NCBI GenBank assembly: GCA_017469355.1
Contig: JAFUGM010000034.1
Location: 1-48,947, forward strand
Length of the DNA: 48,947 bases
Source of the DNA: Solobacterium sp.
GTDB taxonomy: Bacteria > Bacillota_I > Bacilli_A > Erysipelotrichales > Erysipelotrichaceae
Reading direction: 5' to 3'
Made by a program: the position numbers and the translations under genes. Of the stretch, positions 3,004-36,146 are shown piece after piece. Each line of letters begins with the position of its first letter. The stretch's first letter is position 1. The notes beneath the pieces are model-generated. The model had not been told where the DNA came from, did not search any database, and saw nothing but the letters and a program-made list of their open reading frames with translations.

Positions 3004-3695
3004 CTTCTTCCTTCCTCCATCCGGTATCCCTGTCCCCAGACAACTCGAATGTATCTTGGGGATCCAGGGTCAATCTCAATCTTCTCTCTTAAGTGACGAA
3101 TATGAACCGCAACAACCCCTTCACTGCCAATGGGTTCTTCTTTCCATACCCGCCGATAGATTTCCTGGGAGGTGAACACCTTCCCGGGATGTTCCATCAA
3201 CAGTTTCAGGATTCCATATTCTACAGGTGTCAGATTTACTTCTTCCCCATCTGCGGTAACCGTCCGGCTTCGATCATCCAGACAGATTCCGCCGATTTCA
3301 ATCACGTCTTCCCGCACCGGCTGTCCACCCAGTCGGGTATATCGGCGCAGTTGGGAACGAATTCTGGCGATGACTTCAGATGGATGGAACGGTTTTGTCA
3401 CATAGTCATCTGCGCCAATGTCCAAGCCCAGAATCTTATCGGATTCTTCACTTTTCGCCGTAAGAAGAATGATCGGCACATTCGTGACTTCACGCATCTT
3501 CGCCGTGGCCGTTATTCCGTCCATATTTGGCATCATGATATCCATTAACACAAGATCAATCGGTTCCTTCTGCACCAGATCAAGCGCCTGTTTTCCATCT
3601 GTCGCTTCATATAATGTGAATTCCTGCGAAGAAAGATATATCTTCAATGCGTTCACAATATCCAGATCATCATCCACAATCAGTATTCCAGCCAT
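3000..3695 (-). CDS. OmpR/PhoB-family response regulator
   Basis: A 231-residue regulator. The receiver domain (1-115) has the acidic pocket Asp8/Asp9, the phospho-acceptor Asp52 in LMDIMMPNMDG and the switch sequence DYVTKPF. The C-terminal winged helix (about 130-229) ends in the typical VWGQGYRM. A GAGGT ribosome site precedes the ATG at 3695. It is first in the operon with the kinase (4-nt overlap). Two ATTAAGA repeats 11 bp apart lie 64-81 bp upstream, the spacing expected for OmpR-type dimers, so autoregulation is likely. Confidence 0.92.
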   Translation of the reverse strand: MAGILIVDDDLDIVNALKIYLSSQEFTLYEATDGKQALDLVQKEPIDLVLMDIMMPNMDGITATAKMREVTNVPIILLTAKSEESDKILGLDIGADDYVTKPFHPSEVIARIRSQLRRYTRLGGQPVREDVIEIGGICLDDRSRTVTADGEEVNLTPVEYGILKLLMEHPGKVFTSQEIYRRVWKEEPIGSEGVVAVHIRHLREKIEIDPGSPRYIRVVWGQGYRMEEGRR

Positions 3696-3726
3696 GGGTT
3701 ACCTCATTTCTACTGTTCATTGTAAG

Positions 3727-3750
3727 AAAACGCCTGTTAAGAAAACAGGC
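3727..3750 (-). terminator. Intrinsic terminator or attenuator hairpin
   Basis: GCCTGTT (3732-3738) pairs with AACAGGC (3744-3750). On the minus strand the stem is followed by GTTTTC. It sits between the lysine operon and the response-regulator start. It may be the second of two tandem terminators, or a leader attenuator of the two-component operon. Confidence 0.5.
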
Positions 3751-3776
3751 TTAATTCCATTAAGAGTTTATTAAGA
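3750..3776. promoter_or_regulatory. Candidate response-regulator operator (11-bp direct repeats)
   Basis: ATTAAGA occurs at 3759-3765 and 3770-3776, exactly 11 bp apart. The first copy also forms a dyad CTTAAT-TCC-ATTAAG with 3750-3755. OmpR/PhoB-family proteins bind head-to-tail repeats with one-helical-turn spacing, and this sits upstream of an OmpR-family gene. Assignment to that regulator is inferred. Confidence 0.45.
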
Positions 3777-3785
3777 TCCTCGCAC

Positions 3786-3816
3786 AAAACAGGTCCGGAC
3801 ATTCCATCCAGACCTG
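3786..3816 (-). terminator. Terminator of the lysine operon
   Basis: CAGGTCCGGA (3790-3799) pairs with TCCAGACCTG (3807-3816), a 10-bp stem with one wobble. On the minus strand it is followed by TTTTGTG. It lies about 30 bp past the ddh stop codon. Confidence 0.8.
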
Positions 3817-3844
3817 TGATTCAAATCGTTAATTTGCGTTTCAA

Positions 3845-4831
3845 TTACAGCAGATGTGCTCTCAGTTCTTCCGGACTGGATTCACTTAACAGTACCGGAG
3901 GAATATCGAAGACGGTCTTACAGCCAAAGTCACCCTGATCATACAGGCGTTTCACTGCTCTTGCGTATGCGACAAGAACACTGGAGGTAAACTCCGGGTT
4001 GGAATCCAGTTTCAGACTGAATTCAATCACATGTCCATGTTCGTGATCTACACCAGTCGTGCCGGAACGGAACACAAATCCACCATGGGCAAGACCAGAA
4101 TGATTCGCTTTCATCTCCTCTGCCGAGATGAAGTGAACCGTGGTGTCGTAATCTGCGAAGTAGTTTGGCATTTCTTTGATTTCACGCTCAATCGCTTCTG
4201 CGTCAGCGCCTTCCTTCAATACGACAAATGCCTCACGAATATGTTTCTGACGGGTGGTAAGCTCCGGGTTCTCCCCATTTCTTACCGACTGAAGTGCTTC
4301 TTCCACCGGAATCGTATACTGTCTTGCGTCGGCGACACCTTCAATCCGCCGGATTGCGTCGGAGTGACCCTGACTGACGCCCTTGCCCCAGAAGGTATAG
4401 TCCGATCCATTGGGGAGTACCGCGTTCGTATATGCCCGCATCAAAGAGAACAGTCCCGGATCCCATCCGACGGAAATCATCGCTGTATGGTGAGACGCTT
4501 CTGCGCTGGCATTGACATTTGCGAAATGTGTTGGGATATTCGCATGAGTATCAAAGCTGTCAATGACATTGAAATACTTCGCATATTCCGGCGTCTGTAC
4601 CGGCAGATCTGTCGCACTTCCACCGCAGATGACCAGCACATCAATCTTATCTTTCCAGGATAGCAGTTCTTCCGCAGCTACCACCGGCACATCCGGTGAA
4701 GCGATGGTTACGTCTGATGGATTCCGCCGTGTAAAAACAGCGACCAGCTCCGTATCATTTGTTTCTTTTACGGCGCATTCCACACCGCGTCCGAGATTTC
4801 CATAGCCGAGAATTCCGAGTCTGACTGTCAT
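3845..4831 (-). CDS. ddh: meso-Diaminopimelate D-dehydrogenase
   Basis: A 328-residue NADPH-dependent enzyme that reductively aminates tetrahydrodipicolinate straight to meso-diaminopimelate, bypassing the acylated DapD/E/F steps. The N-terminal Rossmann motif GILGYGNLGRG is characteristic. Family blocks such as SVGWDPGLFSLMRAY, FWGKGVSQGHSDAIRRI and the C-terminal DFGCKTVFDIPP are all present and the length is normal. It is the last gene of the lysine operon, 18 bp after dapB. Its presence implies that tetrahydrodipicolinate made by DapA/DapB goes to cell-wall diaminopimelate or, through LysA, to lysine in one pathway. No defects seen. Confidence 0.97.
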   Translation of the reverse strand: MTVRLGILGYGNLGRGVECAVKETNDTELVAVFTRRNPSDVTIASPDVPVVAAEELLSWKDKIDVLVICGGSATDLPVQTPEYAKYFNVIDSFDTHANIPTHFANVNASAEASHHTAMISVGWDPGLFSLMRAYTNAVLPNGSDYTFWGKGVSQGHSDAIRRIEGVADARQYTIPVEEALQSVRNGENPELTTRQKHIREAFVVLKEGADAEAIEREIKEMPNYFADYDTTVHFISAEEMKANHSGLAHGGFVFRSGTTGVDHEHGHVIEFSLKLDSNPEFTSSVLVAYARAVKRLYDQGDFGCKTVFDIPPVLLSESSPEELRAHLL

Positions 4832-7742: not shown

Positions 7743-7760
7743 CATACAAGAACATCCTGA

Positions 7761-7915
7761 CGATAGCACTCCTACTTTCGTAGACAGTCTGACGGATATT
7801 CTCCGTCAGCCCACCATTTCCCAATGCCTTGGAAAACAGTTCGGCGGAATTGCTTATACCGGGCATCCAACGCCTGCCGGCTCTGCCCGATATCGTCGCT
7901 CCCGCGCCTCTATCA
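7761..7915 (-). promoter_or_regulatory. Lysine riboswitch (L-box)
   Basis: Read on the minus strand, the element opens with GATAGAGGCGCGG, the conserved 5' core of the lysine riboswitch. It contains CCGCCGAAC in the P3-P4 region, then GGTGGGCTGACGG…CGTCAGACTGTC and the P5-like stem CTAC-GAAA-GTAG. It closes with CTATCG, which pairs with TGATAG to form P1. It sits directly upstream of an intrinsic terminator and lysA, so lysine binding should favour termination of lysA-dapA-dapB-ddh. Boundaries are by eye. Confidence 0.93.
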
Positions 7916-7929
7916 ATGAATGAATATTA

Positions 7930-30759: not shown

Positions 30760-30903
30760 TCATTTCACTGATACAATCCATTTATCGCCATTCACCAGAT
30801 ATTGAAACTCTGTCAATTCCTTACCTGTATTATCCTTTTCCCAACAATCAGTAAAACAGGACAAGGAATTCACAGGCAGATTGCCATATATGGAGGAATA
30901 CAT
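30760..30903 (-). CDS. Small 47-residue protein, unknown
   Basis: The ATG at 30903 is preceded by AGAGGAAATCAT, a plausible ribosome site, and the frame overlaps the 3' end of the ATPase gene by 34 nt. The product is mixed in character, with two Cys (SCFTDC) and a C-terminal NGDKWIVSVK, which resembles the last beta-strand of a larger domain. It may be a genuine small protein or the remnant of a truncated one. No family recognised. Confidence 0.35.
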   Translation of the reverse strand: MYSSIYGNLPVNSLSCFTDCWEKDNTGKELTEFQYLVNGDKWIVSVK

Positions 30904-32228
30904 ATGATTTCCTCTTTTAATACCAAATTCCTCGGATGAATCACATAACAATCTCCAATTCTTGCTCTGTACTTTTCTCTAAATTTTTCTAATGATGACG
31001 TACTGTACCTCTTTCCGGATTTCACCTCTAACGGATACATTTTGTATTTCAGCTTACTATTATTGGAAATGATAAAATCTATCTCGATATCATTCCGATG
31101 TTTTTCTTCTGCGTAATGCGTGTAAAAAAACAGCTTATGCCCATTTGCCGTAAGCATTTGAGCAATCGCATTTTCATACAACATTCCCTCATTGATCGAA
31201 AGCTTGTTATTAAGTATCTGACTGTATACTGCACCTTCCAACAATTCATTTTCATCAAATGCGTGGCTCAGCAGCAATCCGGTATCTCCCATGTAGCATT
31301 TCACATATCCCCGATCCTTATTGACCGAAAGTCCTACATTAGGATCGCTGCACAAAAAGCATTCATTTGAAATCATGGAATCAGACAACCAGAAAAATGT
31401 TTCACTATATTGATCCGCATAGCTTCCTTTCTGTATTTCCTTGAAAATCACTCTTTTTTCATGTTTGGATAAAAGCCCGGGAATCTGATCGTAGATCGTC
31501 AGCACTTTACTTCTATACTGCGTCTTTATCTTCATAATATCGTTTCTGTAAAGATTAAGAATATCCCTTTTCTCTGCGTCAACGAGATCAAAGCTTTTGT
31601 TGTTTTCTATGAAAAGAGAGACCGGTTTTGGCATTCCTCCGACAAGCATATATTGTTTAAAAAGCAACATGGCTTTATTATGCATTCCCCTTTCCAGGGG
31701 TTCTCTGTTTGCAAAGCAGCTTTTTATATATGTAATCAGCTGATCCTCACCCAATGCCCACGCAAACTCCTCGAAGTCCATCGGATACATGCGGATACTG
31801 CGTTCCTCGGATGGAATTACGATGTCTTTCACATTTTCTTTAATGGATATAAGAGAGCCGGTTTCAATGTAATCATATCTACCATCGGCAACAAGATACT
31901 TTATAGCCGCCCTGGCCACAGGAAACATCTGCACTTCATCAAAAATAATCAGCGATTCCCTCGGAATAAGCTTCACTCCAAAATAAGTTCCGAGCATCAT
32001 AAACAGGTCATCCAACCTGTTTAAATACTGATTAAAATAGCCTTCCACAGTTTTATCATTTTGGGCAAAGTCTATAAATATATAGGATTTATATTCCTTC
32101 TTTGCAAATTCTTCAACAATTGTCGACTTTCCGATACGTCTGGCTCCTTCAATTAATATCGCTTTTGTTCCGTGACTCTCATTTTTCCATTCGACCAACT
32201 TGTCATATATTTTTCTTTTCAGTATCAT
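30870..32228 (-). CDS. AAA ATPase with DUF4143 C-terminal domain
   Basis: A 452-residue protein. Start ATG 32228 follows AGGAG at good spacing. Walker A is EGARRIGKST, Walker B LIIFDEVQMFP, and the C-terminal nuclease-like DUF4143 region contains IEIDFIISNN and PLEVKSGK. This family is common in anaerobes and often variably present between strains. Its biological role is not established. Base composition is more AT-rich than the lysine-operon region, consistent with acquisition. Confidence 0.9.
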   Translation of the reverse strand: MILKRKIYDKLVEWKNESHGTKAILIEGARRIGKSTIVEEFAKKEYKSYIFIDFAQNDKTVEGYFNQYLNRLDDLFMMLGTYFGVKLIPRESLIIFDEVQMFPVARAAIKYLVADGRYDYIETGSLISIKENVKDIVIPSEERSIRMYPMDFEEFAWALGEDQLITYIKSCFANREPLERGMHNKAMLLFKQYMLVGGMPKPVSLFIENNKSFDLVDAEKRDILNLYRNDIMKIKTQYRSKVLTIYDQIPGLLSKHEKRVIFKEIQKGSYADQYSETFFWLSDSMISNECFLCSDPNVGLSVNKDRGYVKCYMGDTGLLLSHAFDENELLEGAVYSQILNNKLSINEGMLYENAIAQMLTANGHKLFFYTHYAEEKHRNDIEIDFIISNNSKLKYKMYPLEVKSGKRYSTSSLEKFREKYRARIGDCYVIHPRNLVLKEEIICIPPYMAICL

Positions 32229-32407
32229 ACAGCTGCTCCTATTCACAGAAAGTATTTTATCGTTTGATAATACGCACTGTTTATAATCCGTATATTTTTG
32301 ATTATACGCAATTATAGTTCAAAATCTTGATTATGCGCTAGTATTTATATCGATTGTTTTCCTATTATGCGCGCATTTCCTTCGTCGTGCCTATTTCCGG
32401 GTCAAAG

Positions 32408-32441
32408 AAACCGCTTGCGACACAGGTATCGCAAGCGGTTT
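32408..32441. repeat. Perfect 13-bp inverted repeat
   Basis: AAACCGCTTGCGA (32408-32420) pairs exactly with TCGCAAGCGGTTT (32429-32441). T-rich sequence (TTTCTTTG) follows on the minus strand, so it may be a terminator, although the nearest upstream minus-strand gene ends 480 bp away. It lies in the 670-bp gap 32,247-32,918. Confidence 0.55.
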
Positions 32442-32560
32442 ACAGGGGGAATACTGATTGAATAACCTACATTTTTGTGTTTTAAGTTTCGTCATTCATC
32501 TCAAAATTCTGTTCACCGAAAATTAAAGCAGCATTCTATCTGAATTGGAGGTATATTCCT

Positions 32561-32611
32561 GTTATATTTTTCGTCAATTTGATTTTTTGTTCTTTCCGCG
32601 AAAAATATAAC
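32561..32611. repeat. 51-bp hairpin element, copy A
   Basis: GTTATATTTTTCG at 32561-32573 and CGAAAAATATAAC at 32599-32611 form a perfect 13-bp stem around a 25-nt centre that begins TCAA and ends CCG. It has the same size and layout as copy B 32 bp away. No gene covers it. Confidence 0.7.
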
Positions 32612-32643
32612 AAGGTTCTGTATGCGATTCGCTAAATTTCGTT

Positions 32644-32694
32644 GTTATAAATTTCGTCAAAACGAGAATTTTGGCGATCTGCGAAATTTATAAC
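32644..32694. repeat. 51-bp hairpin element, copy B
   Basis: GTTATAAATTTCG at 32644-32656 and CGAAATTTATAAC at 32682-32694 form a perfect 13-bp stem around a 25-nt centre that also begins TCAA and contains CAAAA…TTTTG, a possible inner stem. Stem positions that differ from copy A are changed in both arms, so pairing is kept. Confidence 0.7.
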
Positions 32695-32811
32695 ATGATT
32701 TTGAAGCAGAATCACAAGATCTAACCCACCTATCACCAGCCACTACATCCTTCCAGTCATGTGCTTATCTTCAAAAAACGGCAAGACGTTCGAGGCTTGA
32801 GCCGGACAAAG

Positions 32812-32918: not shown

Positions 32919-33491
32919 TCACTTTTTCATCAATCCAGCACCGGCGTTCCATGCTTTTCCAACCTGTTCGCCGGATACATAGTATCCATGCTGGAACTGA
33001 TCGAATATCAGAGCCTGCAGCTTTGCCGGATCGACCTTGCCATTCTCGGCCAGAACCCTTTCTTCCGCTGCCGTGTTCACGATCTTTCCTACAATCGCAT
33101 AGAAGCTTTCCGTTTCAGATACTTCCGCAAGTTCACACTCCATCACCACAGGGAACTCTTCAATAACGGGCGCGTTTACAAACTCACTCTTTACGGCATG
33201 ATATCCGGTTCTCTCAAATTTATCATCCATCTTATTGCCGGAAGCGATCCCAAAGAAGTCCGCAACATCCATGTGATCTCTGTCCGCAATACTGACCGTA
33301 AATGCCTTTGTCTTAAGCAGGTTCTGTGTTGTTTTATGATCCTCATCAATAAACAGGGCAATCCTGTCTTCATTGCAGATCATACCCCAAGCGGCATTCA
33401 TGGCATTTACCTTGCCGTTTTCATCGTAAGCCGCCACCATAAGTACAGGCATCGGATATACCGCCTGCACCACACCCAAATTCTTCTTCAT
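32919..33491 (-). CDS. Flavin reductase-like (flavoredoxin-type) FMN protein
   Basis: A 190-residue split-barrel flavoprotein. Features are the N-terminal YPMPVLMVAAYDENGKVNAM, the WGMICNEDRIALFI block, and the helix around TTQNLLKTKAFTVSIADRDH. It carries FMN and passes electrons or reduces small acceptors. It is the last gene of a four-gene operon (NTF2-like, nitroreductase, flavodoxin-like, this), 12 bp after its neighbour. The whole set is divergent from an HxlR regulator, a common arrangement for electrophile or quinone response. Confidence 0.9.
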   Translation of the reverse strand: MKKNLGVVQAVYPMPVLMVAAYDENGKVNAMNAAWGMICNEDRIALFIDEDHKTTQNLLKTKAFTVSIADRDHMDVADFFGIASGNKMDDKFERTGYHAVKSEFVNAPVIEEFPVVMECELAEVSETESFYAIVGKIVNTAAEERVLAENGKVDPAKLQALIFDQFQHGYYVSGEQVGKAWNAGAGLMKK

Positions 33492-33503
33492 CTCTGTTCT
33501 CCT

Positions 33504-34052
33504 TTACTGAATCGACTTTCCAAGCTCATATGCCTGCTGCAATTCCTTTTTTCCTTGTGTATCTCCGGGCTGTGTCACGTATCCACAAAGAATCTTTCCA
33601 AGGCTCTTCCATCCGATGTGTTTTTCCAGATGGTCATACCAGTGTTCGCTCTCTTCAAATCCTGCACCTTCAGCTGCCATAATGAGAACGGATTCTTTTT
33701 TCGGATTCCTGTAATTAGGATCATTCTCTGCGATAGCAAACAGTCTGTCAAACGCATTCTTCAGGAATCCGGATACGAACCAGTAATAAAGCGGAGATGC
33801 AAGCACAACGACATCTGCCTCTCTATACAGCGGATAAATCTGTTCCATATCATCCCTTTGCGTGCATGGATGATCAGAATCTTTTCCTCCACCCCAGCAT
33901 CCAAGACATCCATTGATCTTCATCCTGGAAAGCTGGAACTCCGTCACCTTGTTCCCTGCTTCTTCTGCGCCGCACTTAAACTCCGCCGTCAGAGCGGATG
34001 TATTCCCCTTAACCCGCGGACTTCCATTCAGAATGATTATAGTTTTTGCCAT
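33504..34052 (-). CDS. NADPH-dependent FMN reductase / flavodoxin-fold protein
   Basis: A 182-residue protein. It has the flavodoxin-fold phosphate loop ILNGSPRVKGNTSAL, the central CLGCWGGGKDSDHPC pair of cysteines, and ASPLYYWFVSGFLKNAFDRL. These match the iron-sulfur flavoprotein/NAD(P)H reductase group, although only part of a cluster-binding set is visible. It starts 3 bp after the nitroreductase stop, so translation is probably coupled. Likely reduces quinones or nitro compounds. Confidence 0.9.
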   Translation of the reverse strand: MAKTIIILNGSPRVKGNTSALTAEFKCGAEEAGNKVTEFQLSRMKINGCLGCWGGGKDSDHPCTQRDDMEQIYPLYREADVVVLASPLYYWFVSGFLKNAFDRLFAIAENDPNYRNPKKESVLIMAAEGAGFEESEHWYDHLEKHIGWKSLGKILCGYVTQPGDTQGKKELQQAYELGKSIQ

Positions 34053-34055
34053 TAC

Positions 34056-34574
34056 TTAAAGTTCCTCTACAAAATCCTCAATTGGTCTGTACACATCATG
34101 CCACGGAGCATATGGCACTGAGTCCTCTGTGGCATATCCCACCGGAAGAAGACAGACTGGCTTGATATTTGCCGGAAGACCAAACGCCTTGGCAACCGCC
34201 TTCACATCAAACAGCCTTACCCATACAGATCCTATGCCCTGTTCCCATGCTTCCAGCATCATGTGAGTACAAACGATGCTGCAATCCATCTCACCACTGC
34301 TGTAACCACGCTCTGTATGGCTCTTCCATGTCTTGCTTTCATCACTGCAGATCAGGAACACCATAGGTGCTCCATAGATACAGCGGCAGAGGCGGTTGAT
34401 CTTCGCCATCGCCTCTTCGCTCTTCAGCACATAGATCATCTGCGGCTGGAAATTGACCGCTGTCGGTGCCAGCTGTGCAGCCTTCAGGATGTTGTTGATC
34501 TTCTCCTGCTCCACAGGTCTGTCTGAAAAGGAACGGACAGAATATCTGTCGGCAGCAAGTTCCATAAAATCCAT
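34056..34574 (-). CDS. Nitroreductase family protein
   Basis: A 172-residue compact nitroreductase. MDFMELAADRYSVRSFSD is the typical N-terminal FMN site, then LKAAQLAPTAVNFQPQ, and the C-terminal LPVGYATED. The short length fits the small Clostridium-type group. Its ATG has GGAGGAGAGCA upstream. It is second in the operon, with 16 bp to the NTF2-like gene. Substrate unknown. Confidence 0.92.
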   Translation of the reverse strand: MDFMELAADRYSVRSFSDRPVEQEKINNILKAAQLAPTAVNFQPQMIYVLKSEEAMAKINRLCRCIYGAPMVFLICSDESKTWKSHTERGYSSGEMDCSIVCTHMMLEAWEQGIGSVWVRLFDVKAVAKAFGLPANIKPVCLLPVGYATEDSVPYAPWHDVYRPIEDFVEEL

Positions 34575-34590
34575 TGCTCTCCTCCAAGTC

Positions 34591-34959
34591 TTACTGGTAC
34601 TGGTGGAATACCTTTGCGAGGATCTTCCACTGACCGTCTTCCTTGATCAGACTGTGGAAATCCGTAAATGCCAGCCCATGCCAGTCTTCCAATGTTACGC
34701 GGACAACTGCAGCTGTTCCTTCGATGTTCAATACATCTACTCTTGCCTTTGTCTCCGGTGCAGGTCCGAACGCATCCACAGCGCCATAGAGCGCTTCGAT
34801 GGAACCGTTATAATACTCTCCGTTCAGATAGCCGTACATCAGTGCATTCTCTGTAAATGCAGGCTTCATGATGTCACTCTTGCCTTCCTTGCAGGCCTCC
34901 GTGTACTTTGCGATTGTTGCCAGAACCCCTTCGTAATCTGTTACCTTGATCTTTTCCAT
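34591..34959 (-). CDS. NTF2/SnoaL-like protein
   Basis: A 122-residue cone-fold protein. The ATG at 34959 is chosen because AGGAGGAACGATC precedes it; the frame is open upstream but lacks a ribosome site there. A helix-rich first half (YEGVLATIAKYTEACKEGK) and the strand run TAAVVRVTLEDWHGLAFTDFHSLIKEDGQWKI are typical of putative lumazine-binding/SnoaL-like proteins. First gene of the flavin-enzyme operon, divergent from hxlR. Its role is unknown. Confidence 0.85.
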   Translation of the reverse strand: MEKIKVTDYEGVLATIAKYTEACKEGKSDIMKPAFTENALMYGYLNGEYYNGSIEALYGAVDAFGPAPETKARVDVLNIEGTAAVVRVTLEDWHGLAFTDFHSLIKEDGQWKILAKVFHQYQ

Positions 34960-35001
34960 GATCGTTCCTCCTGTTTGTTTTATTGTTTTATTCTCTTTGA
35001 A

Positions 35002-35073
35002 TATAGTTTTAGCTATAATACACATATTGACAAGAACGCACATTTTTGTGAAATACTATCAAAATGTATAGTA
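35002..35073. promoter_or_regulatory. Divergent promoter/operator region of the HxlR regulator
   Basis: Two dyads lie in the 126-bp space between the divergent genes: TATAG-N6-CTATA (35002-35017) and TACTAT-N8-ATAGTA (35054-35073). They share an ACTATA/TATAGT core and are good HxlR-binding candidates. TTGACA occurs at 35027-35032 on the plus strand. The second dyad abuts the hxlR ribosome site, consistent with autoregulation. Confidence 0.5.
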
Positions 35074-35085
35074 AGGAGAAACTCC

Positions 35086-35433
35086 ATGAACATCGAAAAG
35101 ATCAAAACCTATAGCTGTCCGGTGGAAGCGGCAATGGATGTCATCGGCGGAAAATACAAAGCTCTGATCGTTTATGAACTGATCAACGGAACCCGCAGAT
35201 ACAATGAGATCCAGAAAGCAGTTCCGCAGGCTACGCCTCGGATGCTAAGTAAGCAGCTGAAGGAACTTGAAGAAGACGAGATCATCAACCGCACCTTATA
35301 CCCTGTCGTACCGCCCAAAACAGAATACTCTCTGACGGAGTTCGGGCAGTCCCTTGTTCCGATCGTACAGGCGCTATGCGATTGGGGTGAACACTACTTT
35401 GAAGTAGCGGGCGTTCCCGTTCCCTGCGACTAA
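35086..35433 (+). CDS. HxlR-family transcriptional regulator
   Basis: A 115-residue winged-helix regulator. The ATG at 35086 follows AAGGAG; the frame is open far upstream, but that part lies antisense to the NTF2-like and nitroreductase genes. Family blocks are YSCPVEAAMDVIGGKYKALI, RRYNEIQKAVPQATPRMLSKQL and YPVVPPKTEYSLTEFG. The Cys in the N-terminal YSCPVE is conserved in redox- and aldehyde-sensing members. It is divergent from the flavin-enzyme operon, its probable target. Confidence 0.93.
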   Translation: MNIEKIKTYSCPVEAAMDVIGGKYKALIVYELINGTRRYNEIQKAVPQATPRMLSKQLKELEEDEIINRTLYPVVPPKTEYSLTEFGQSLVPIVQALCDWGEHYFEVAGVPVPCD

Positions 35434-35460
35434 AAATGTCCGGCAGTCACCGGGCATTTT
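35433..35460 (+). terminator. Terminator of the hxlR gene
   Basis: AAAATGTCCGG pairs with CCGGGCATTTT (one wobble), directly after the stop codon. Confidence 0.8.
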
Positions 35461-35579
35461 CATATGGTTTAACACCTTGCTTAAAAAACTGAATGTGAGG
35501 CCGCTTGGAACGACGTCAAAGAAATAACTCTGCCATTTACTATAAATGCGGACAACGCAGATTATTTGTTTAAGCCTGT

Positions 35580-36146
35580 CTATGCTCTAAGTTTAAATAT
35601 CCTGGCCGTGAGATTTACAATCAACACCGATGCAGCAATGCCAAGTATTACAACAACGGGCAGTGCCCAGGCAGGACTGCAGCTCATTAGTGTATCGGCA
35701 TATCCGGCAGGCATCTCTTCAATTGCCTCGGTATAAGTAAAGTCACGGTTAAACCAGATCTGACCATAGAAGCCAAAGGTAGAGAATGACATAACGGCAG
35801 TGGAAATTACATCTCCTGTCCAATTGTATTTCGAAACTGCTCTAACGGCCTCTGCCACGATTCCAATGACAAGAAACGGAACGCAGTGCCATGCACTCGC
35901 ATCCCCAATCAGAAAGAACATTAATATGCCGCCTAAAGCTAACGCCGCGGCCACGCCCGGTGCTTTCACCCTGTCAAATGCCTTGATCACGATTCCCGAA
36001 AGCAGAACTCCCGCAATAATCTGATAGCACACAAACATGATCGGATGTATCGCACCCATGAAACAGGTTATTGCTGTTCCGACCAGGTAAAGTACCAGGT
36101 ACACCAGCATCCATAAAGCATTTTTTCCATTCCATTTGTTTTCCAT
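35580..36146 (-). CDS. MptD/Trep_Strep-like ECF S-component-type membrane protein
   Basis: A 188-residue protein with five to six membrane helices (about 10-30, 35-55, 65-85, 88-105, 115-135, 160-183). The spacing, the N-terminal NALWMLVYLVLY and the central FLIGDASAWHCVPFLVIGIV resemble MptD-family putative ECF transporter S components. No T component or ECF ATPase lies nearby; the neighbours are a TetR regulator and an ABC exporter pair. A TTAGCTAA motif upstream, shared with the TetR gene's own operator candidate, suggests common control. Family call is moderate. Confidence 0.6.
   Translation of the reverse strand: MENKWNGKNALWMLVYLVLYLVGTAITCFMGAIHPIMFVCYQIIAGVLLSGIVIKAFDRVKAPGVAAALALGGILMFFLIGDASAWHCVPFLVIGIVAEAVRAVSKYNWTGDVISTAVMSFSTFGFYGQIWFNRDFTYTEAIEEMPAGYADTLMSCSPAWALPVVVILGIAASVLIVNLTARIFKLRA

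Follow-up and report, generated by a model that had tools for sequence, protein, structure and literature searches.

Two long palindromes and the decayed remnant of a third were found in tandem in a gene-free interval of a Solobacterium sp. contig, where they probably represent the orphaned operator of a PDC-S27 gene that has since been lost. PDC-S27 is a PADLOC phage defence candidate, described as an ATPase_2 protein (PF01637) fused to PD-(D/E)XK (PMC12988326). The window, that is, the entire stretch of 48,947 nucleotides that was analyzed (contig JAFUGM010000034.1), has the following features in this region, where R1 denotes a model of the palindrome family that was used to find second copies and L023 is a related locus with an intact PDC-S27 gene.

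30870-32246, minus strand: AAA_14 + DUF4143 gene (PDC-S01), of another family than PDC-S27; the neighbour, on the same strand
32364-32372, 32330-32338, 32301-32309 and 32267-32275, minus strand: four iterons GCG(C/T)AT(A/T)AT, 29-34 bp apart, upstream of the window PDC-S01 gene
32408-32441, minus strand: terminator-like hairpin, rich in GC and with TTTCTTT after it, located between the PDC-S01 gene and the palindromes
32472-32766, minus strand: homologous counterpart (72%, by alignment) of the L023 sequence that forms the PDC-S27 5' flank
32478-32530, minus strand: palindrome C, decayed third copy, by R1 match, with a counterpart in L023
32560-32612, gene sense minus: palindrome A, arms 32560-32573 and 32599-32612, 25-nt centre, by inverted-repeat search and R1 match
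32643-32695, gene sense minus: palindrome B, arms 32643-32656 and 32682-32695, 25-nt centre, by inverted-repeat search and R1 match

A and B are genuine inverted repeats with arms of 14 nt, 100% complementary, and centres of 25 nt. The original prediction had described them as 51-bp hairpins with perfect 13-bp arms around a 25-bp centre; the elements proved to be real and self-complementary and the centre was correct, while the arm length needed correction. The distance from the start of A to the start of B is 83 bp. Folding z-scores relative to dinucleotide shuffles were -7.1 on the plus strand and -8.0 on the minus strand for A, and -3.7 (moderate) and -6.7, respectively, for B. The two copies scored 61.6 and 60.2 bits with R1. 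Both were part of the R1 training set, so their membership of the family is partly by construction; a pattern-free alignment with L023 agrees with it. Only two elements had been recognized previously, and the decayed copy C had been missed. It is located 82 bp from A and was scored by R1 at 24.7 bits on the plus strand and 20.1 bits on the minus strand (E 2.8e-4).

The possibility was considered that the arms carry compensatory changes, as had been proposed from differences at several positions. Only two positions differ between the arms of A and B (TT versus AA), and compensation is not supported. Of the 14 family members, 5 lack pairing at one of these columns and 2 at the other, the L023 ortholog of B is mismatched at both positions, and the covariation term of the 14-member alignment is 0.01. 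The members were recovered with a pattern that fixed other arm bases, and the invariance of those bases is therefore partly by construction.

The search of the genome and its relatives that had been suggested gave a divided result. No further copy of the strict pattern was found elsewhere in the assembly (2.69 Mb, 92 contigs), whereas relatives do have copies. The pattern scan, run on one genome per species, returned 15 stretches, of which eight (L016, L017, L019, L022, L023, L027, L028 and L029) were taken for true family members; the remainder resemble palindromes that arose by chance. The hosts are Lachnospiraceae, other Clostridia MAGs, a Succinivibrionaceae MAG and an Erysipelothrix-labelled MAG, apparently G262, of the window's own family. 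The 83-bp spacing recurs in the window, L016, L022, G317 (L019) and G322 (L029), and the second copy identified by R1 in L023 is at 85 bp. A spacing of 83 bp amounts to about 8 helical turns; 62 and 52 bp are likewise close to whole turns, 65, 78 and 92 bp less so. In the Succinivibrionaceae locus L022, a PDC-S27 gene is preceded by an array (3430-4070) of at least seven palindrome copies, 83 or 62 bp apart, which contains a stretch of N.

The association between gene and array is strong. In L016, L022, L023, L027, L029 and G317 the copies stand immediately in front of ATPase_2 genes, all of which belong to one clade, and the genes adjoining the palindromes match PADLOC PDLC04984 from end to end (E 7.6e-179), which identifies them as PDC-S27. 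Among nine distinct seed genomes (G262 and G321 look like one genome), 7 of 10 R1 arrays are beside a PDC-S27 gene of one clade (at least 58% identity), one of these genes being broken, and the remaining three, in the window, L017 and L028, have no PDC-S27 neighbour. The clade that carries R1 arrays ranges from Clostridia to a Succinivibrionaceae MAG. None of the other PDC-S27 paralogs listed in the seed genomes (at most 53% identity over the full length) is beside an R1 match. A structure prediction of PDC-S27 from 5 sequences had a mean pLDDT of 46, too poor to show a DNA-binding domain. At 33055-36017 of G319:C219 (L045, L063), a PDC-S27 gene with its cognate palindrome is seemingly interrupted, the PDC-S27 matches at 33206-33532 and 34914-36017 being separated by about 1.4 kb.

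The candidate defence family ranks with the commonest ones in the rumen too (PMC13356809), and experimental validation of most such candidates is said in PMC12988326 to be pending. The window differs from the PDC-S27 described there in lacking the gene itself, and promoter palindromes are not mentioned in the passages available from either paper. Titles, abstracts and a few passages of the open-access literature likewise contained no report of upstream palindromes or iterons for the PDC-S27 or PDC-S01 families.

The array in the window is called orphaned because there is no PDC-S27 gene directly downstream; the R1 family sequence and the spacing of about 83 bp (82 and 83 bp) that characterize the upstream array of this clade are both present. 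Alignment of L023 4980-5276 with window 32472-32766 showed 72% identity, and the homology ends beside the L023 start codon. The L023 flank has three palindromes about 83 bp apart, the gene-proximal one visible as half-sites. The window has the same three, with C decayed, and the bases at C that correspond to the promoter-like site of L023 have decayed too. Neither a PDC-S27 gene nor a remnant was found beside the array. No member of the R1-associated clade turned up in the assembly; the PDC-S27 copies that it does contain, six in number, reach no more than 52% identity with L023. The window would appear to have lost the gene, rather than to have gained the flank alone. When the flavin-reductase neighbour was used for an empty-site comparison with 14 relatives, nucleotide similarity stopped at that gene and no clean empty site was obtained. 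A to C probably do not serve the neighbouring PDC-S01 gene, because the terminator-like hairpin at 32408-32441 separates them from it. The hairpin is a putative terminator by its sequence, and a terminator consensus scan did not report it. Elsewhere in the window, a lysine riboswitch (Rfam RF00168, 85.4 bits) is present at 7756-7920 on the minus strand.

Palindromes are a common feature of PDC-S27 genes. An inverted repeat with a score of at least 11 was present within 260 bp upstream at 35 of 52 PDC-S27 loci, compared with 9 of 1040 dinucleotide shuffles and 4 of 26 PDC-S01 loci. When the search required a gap of 9 or more and covered 200 bp upstream, palindromes were found at 33 of 50 PDC-S27 genes, 3 of 26 PDC-S01 genes and 16 of 255 control ORFs (Fisher 6e-20, which is a guide only, since the loci are mutually related and the controls are raw ORFs from the same loci). 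Approximately one third of the PDC-S27 loci have no palindrome at the threshold used. Many of the genomes are MAGs, and the loci are not independent. Upstream palindromes, mostly 44-61 bp across, also accompany distant PDC-S27 genes, which are located on plasmids of Bacteroidota and Butyrivibrio and on a phage-labelled contig; in this distant set the evidence from Malaciobacter is weak, and the form seen in Wolbachia is a different one. In the Wolbachia phage WO record (L140, about 650-788), a PDC-S27 relative annotated as an archaeal ATPase (DUF234) is found beside a head gene, and two direct copies of a short-armed dyad with TATAAT stand in front of it.

The palindrome sequence differs between PDC-S27 clades, and paralogs within the window's own genome (L056, L062, L071 and L076) carry unrelated palindromes. 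Half-sites are alike mainly at protein identities of at least 60%. Overall co-divergence of protein and half-sites was rejected, as a Mantel test of their similarity across the whole set was not significant. Most PDC-S27 genes keep a long upstream palindrome though its sequence changes between clades, which supports selection on dyad symmetry at the level of the family. Selection on structure, as originally proposed, is upheld in this sense, although the argument from compensatory changes by which it had been reached fails.

Most loci have a good sigma-70-like site, as judged by consensus match, with the palindromes on or beside it. The palindrome precedes the -35 box in L085, L086, L094 and L102, extends across it in L057, L075 and L081, covers most of the promoter in L072 and L073, and is just past the expected start in L060, L066, L074, L080 and L100. 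In the R1 clade, the -35 box falls between two copies and the -10 box within the left arm of the proximal copy. A dyad at the gene promoter is present in the relatives, by consensus promoters, and is decayed at C in the window. An operator in the DNA fits such varied placement better than a leader in the RNA does. At the intact loci, the palindromes are dyads of roughly 50 bp, specific to the clade in sequence but conserved in geometry, and they bracket or overlap a sigma-70-like promoter. The PDC-S27 protein may bind its own dyads as an oligomer and, when bound, would repress its own promoter; activation of the protein, or its being drawn elsewhere, would then relieve the repression.

Many toxin-antitoxin and phage repressor promoters, which drive autoregulated genes, have palindromic operators in tandem. 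The PDC-S27 dyads resemble these in that they are over or beside the -35 and -10 boxes and occur as tandem copies at near-integral helical turns. However, they are unusually long (about 50 bp, with arms of 9-19), and these putative operators differ between paralogs of one genome. Several observations speak against an operator. Besides the PDC-S27 loci that have no palindrome and the non-significant Mantel test, L054, L062 and L065 have palindromes directly behind the stop codon as well, where an operator does not need them, and A and B are still perfect despite the missing gene.

The main rival to the operator reading holds that the palindromes are recognition sites or ends for movement of the PDC-S27 unit, bound or cut by the ATPase-nuclease, and that A to C were left after excision. 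We regard this as unlikely. In L054, L062 and L065 the cognate palindrome recurs no more than about 30 bp past the stop codon, which is consistent with this reading, as are the patchy copy number per genome and the location of a number of PDC-S27 and PDC-S01 genes between direct repeats (29-319 bp), whose score is reached by 0 of 300 random placements. However, the palindromes are upstream only at most loci, track the promoter and range from 1 to 7 or more per gene; no clean empty site was found, and the direct repeats are located outside the palindromes. This last arrangement suggests that a gene may move together with its operator, rather than that the palindromes form the ends. The genes flanked by direct repeats are in L086, L090, L092, L093, L067, L071, L121 and L123, where the repeats are 78-100% identical; some of the repeats contain a terminator-like hairpin, and no tRNA or tmRNA was found at them. 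Rather improbable, too, is the proposal that the palindromes are operators of a separate host regulator encoded elsewhere and not of the ATPase. Their position at promoters is typical of any operator, and DNA binding is ascribed to the ATPase by inference only. The paralogs with unrelated palindromes in a single genome argue against this proposal, and one host regulator would be hard to reconcile with a motif that stays with a single ATPase clade both in Clostridia and in a Succinivibrionaceae MAG.

Structure in RNA had been one of the original suggestions; a function of the hairpins within a transcript's 5' leader, or as a small RNA, is now very unlikely. Folding is strong, in L016 and L027 the ribosome-binding site follows closely on the end of the proximal copy, and the A-rich stretch of the centre recurs in the gene sense. 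However, several palindromes of the family are upstream of or across the -35 box (L085, L086, L094, L102, L057 and L075), and the -10 box inside the left arm means that in this clade the arm would go untranscribed. Furthermore, the variable arm columns are often unpaired, and an Rfam search gave no match at the hairpins. The suggestion that A and B are a pair of miniature mobile elements unrelated to any gene fared worse and can be regarded as highly improbable. The arrays in the window, L017 and L028 do lack an adjoining PDC-S27 gene; against this, the assembly contains a single array, the pattern occurs in just 2 of 315 genomes of the order, and most arrays elsewhere adjoin one gene clade. 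As with REP/REPIN and MITE hairpins, the elements are small, intergenic and sometimes arrayed (L022). In contrast to these, the A/B family is not dispersed in the genome, is tied to the promoters of one gene clade and is associated with a protein that is no transposase; identification as a MITE or REP was rejected on the lack of dispersed copies and the rarity of the pattern in the order. A viral origin was also rejected, the pattern being absent from viral contigs.

The most notable result is that repeated private promoter arrays occur, in two forms, in two candidate defence families. The iterons of PDC-S01 are clade-specific, direct and upstream of the gene (loci L107-L132 and L156-L164). 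Strict arrays of at least three 11-mers were present at 10 of 26 PDC-S01 loci, in 0 of 130 shuffles and at 3 of 255 control ORFs, one of these three being apparently a PDC-S01 array seen on the opposite strand; 22 of the 24 spacings in the strict PDC-S01 arrays are exactly 33 bp. Distant plasmid-borne PDC-S01 genes from five phyla have arrays at 32-34 bp in 6 of 9 cases. It is conceivable, though doubtful, that PDC-S27 and PDC-S01 share a principle in which the ATPase reads a private, fast-diverging array at its own promoter. In the occupied state of the array, the gene would be repressed and the enzyme kept inactive, and loss of this bound state during infection would be the trigger. The arrays so read would be the palindromes of about 50 bp for PDC-S27 and the 33-bp direct iterons for PDC-S01. 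The arrays name the DNA that each protein may read, which makes autoregulation directly testable, and they can serve to locate gene starts and to recognize lost copies, as in the window. Another ATPase-like gene may have an array of its own: at about 225-376 of L082, a control ORF is preceded by five copies of AAAGTAGTAAT at a spacing of 19-20 bp.
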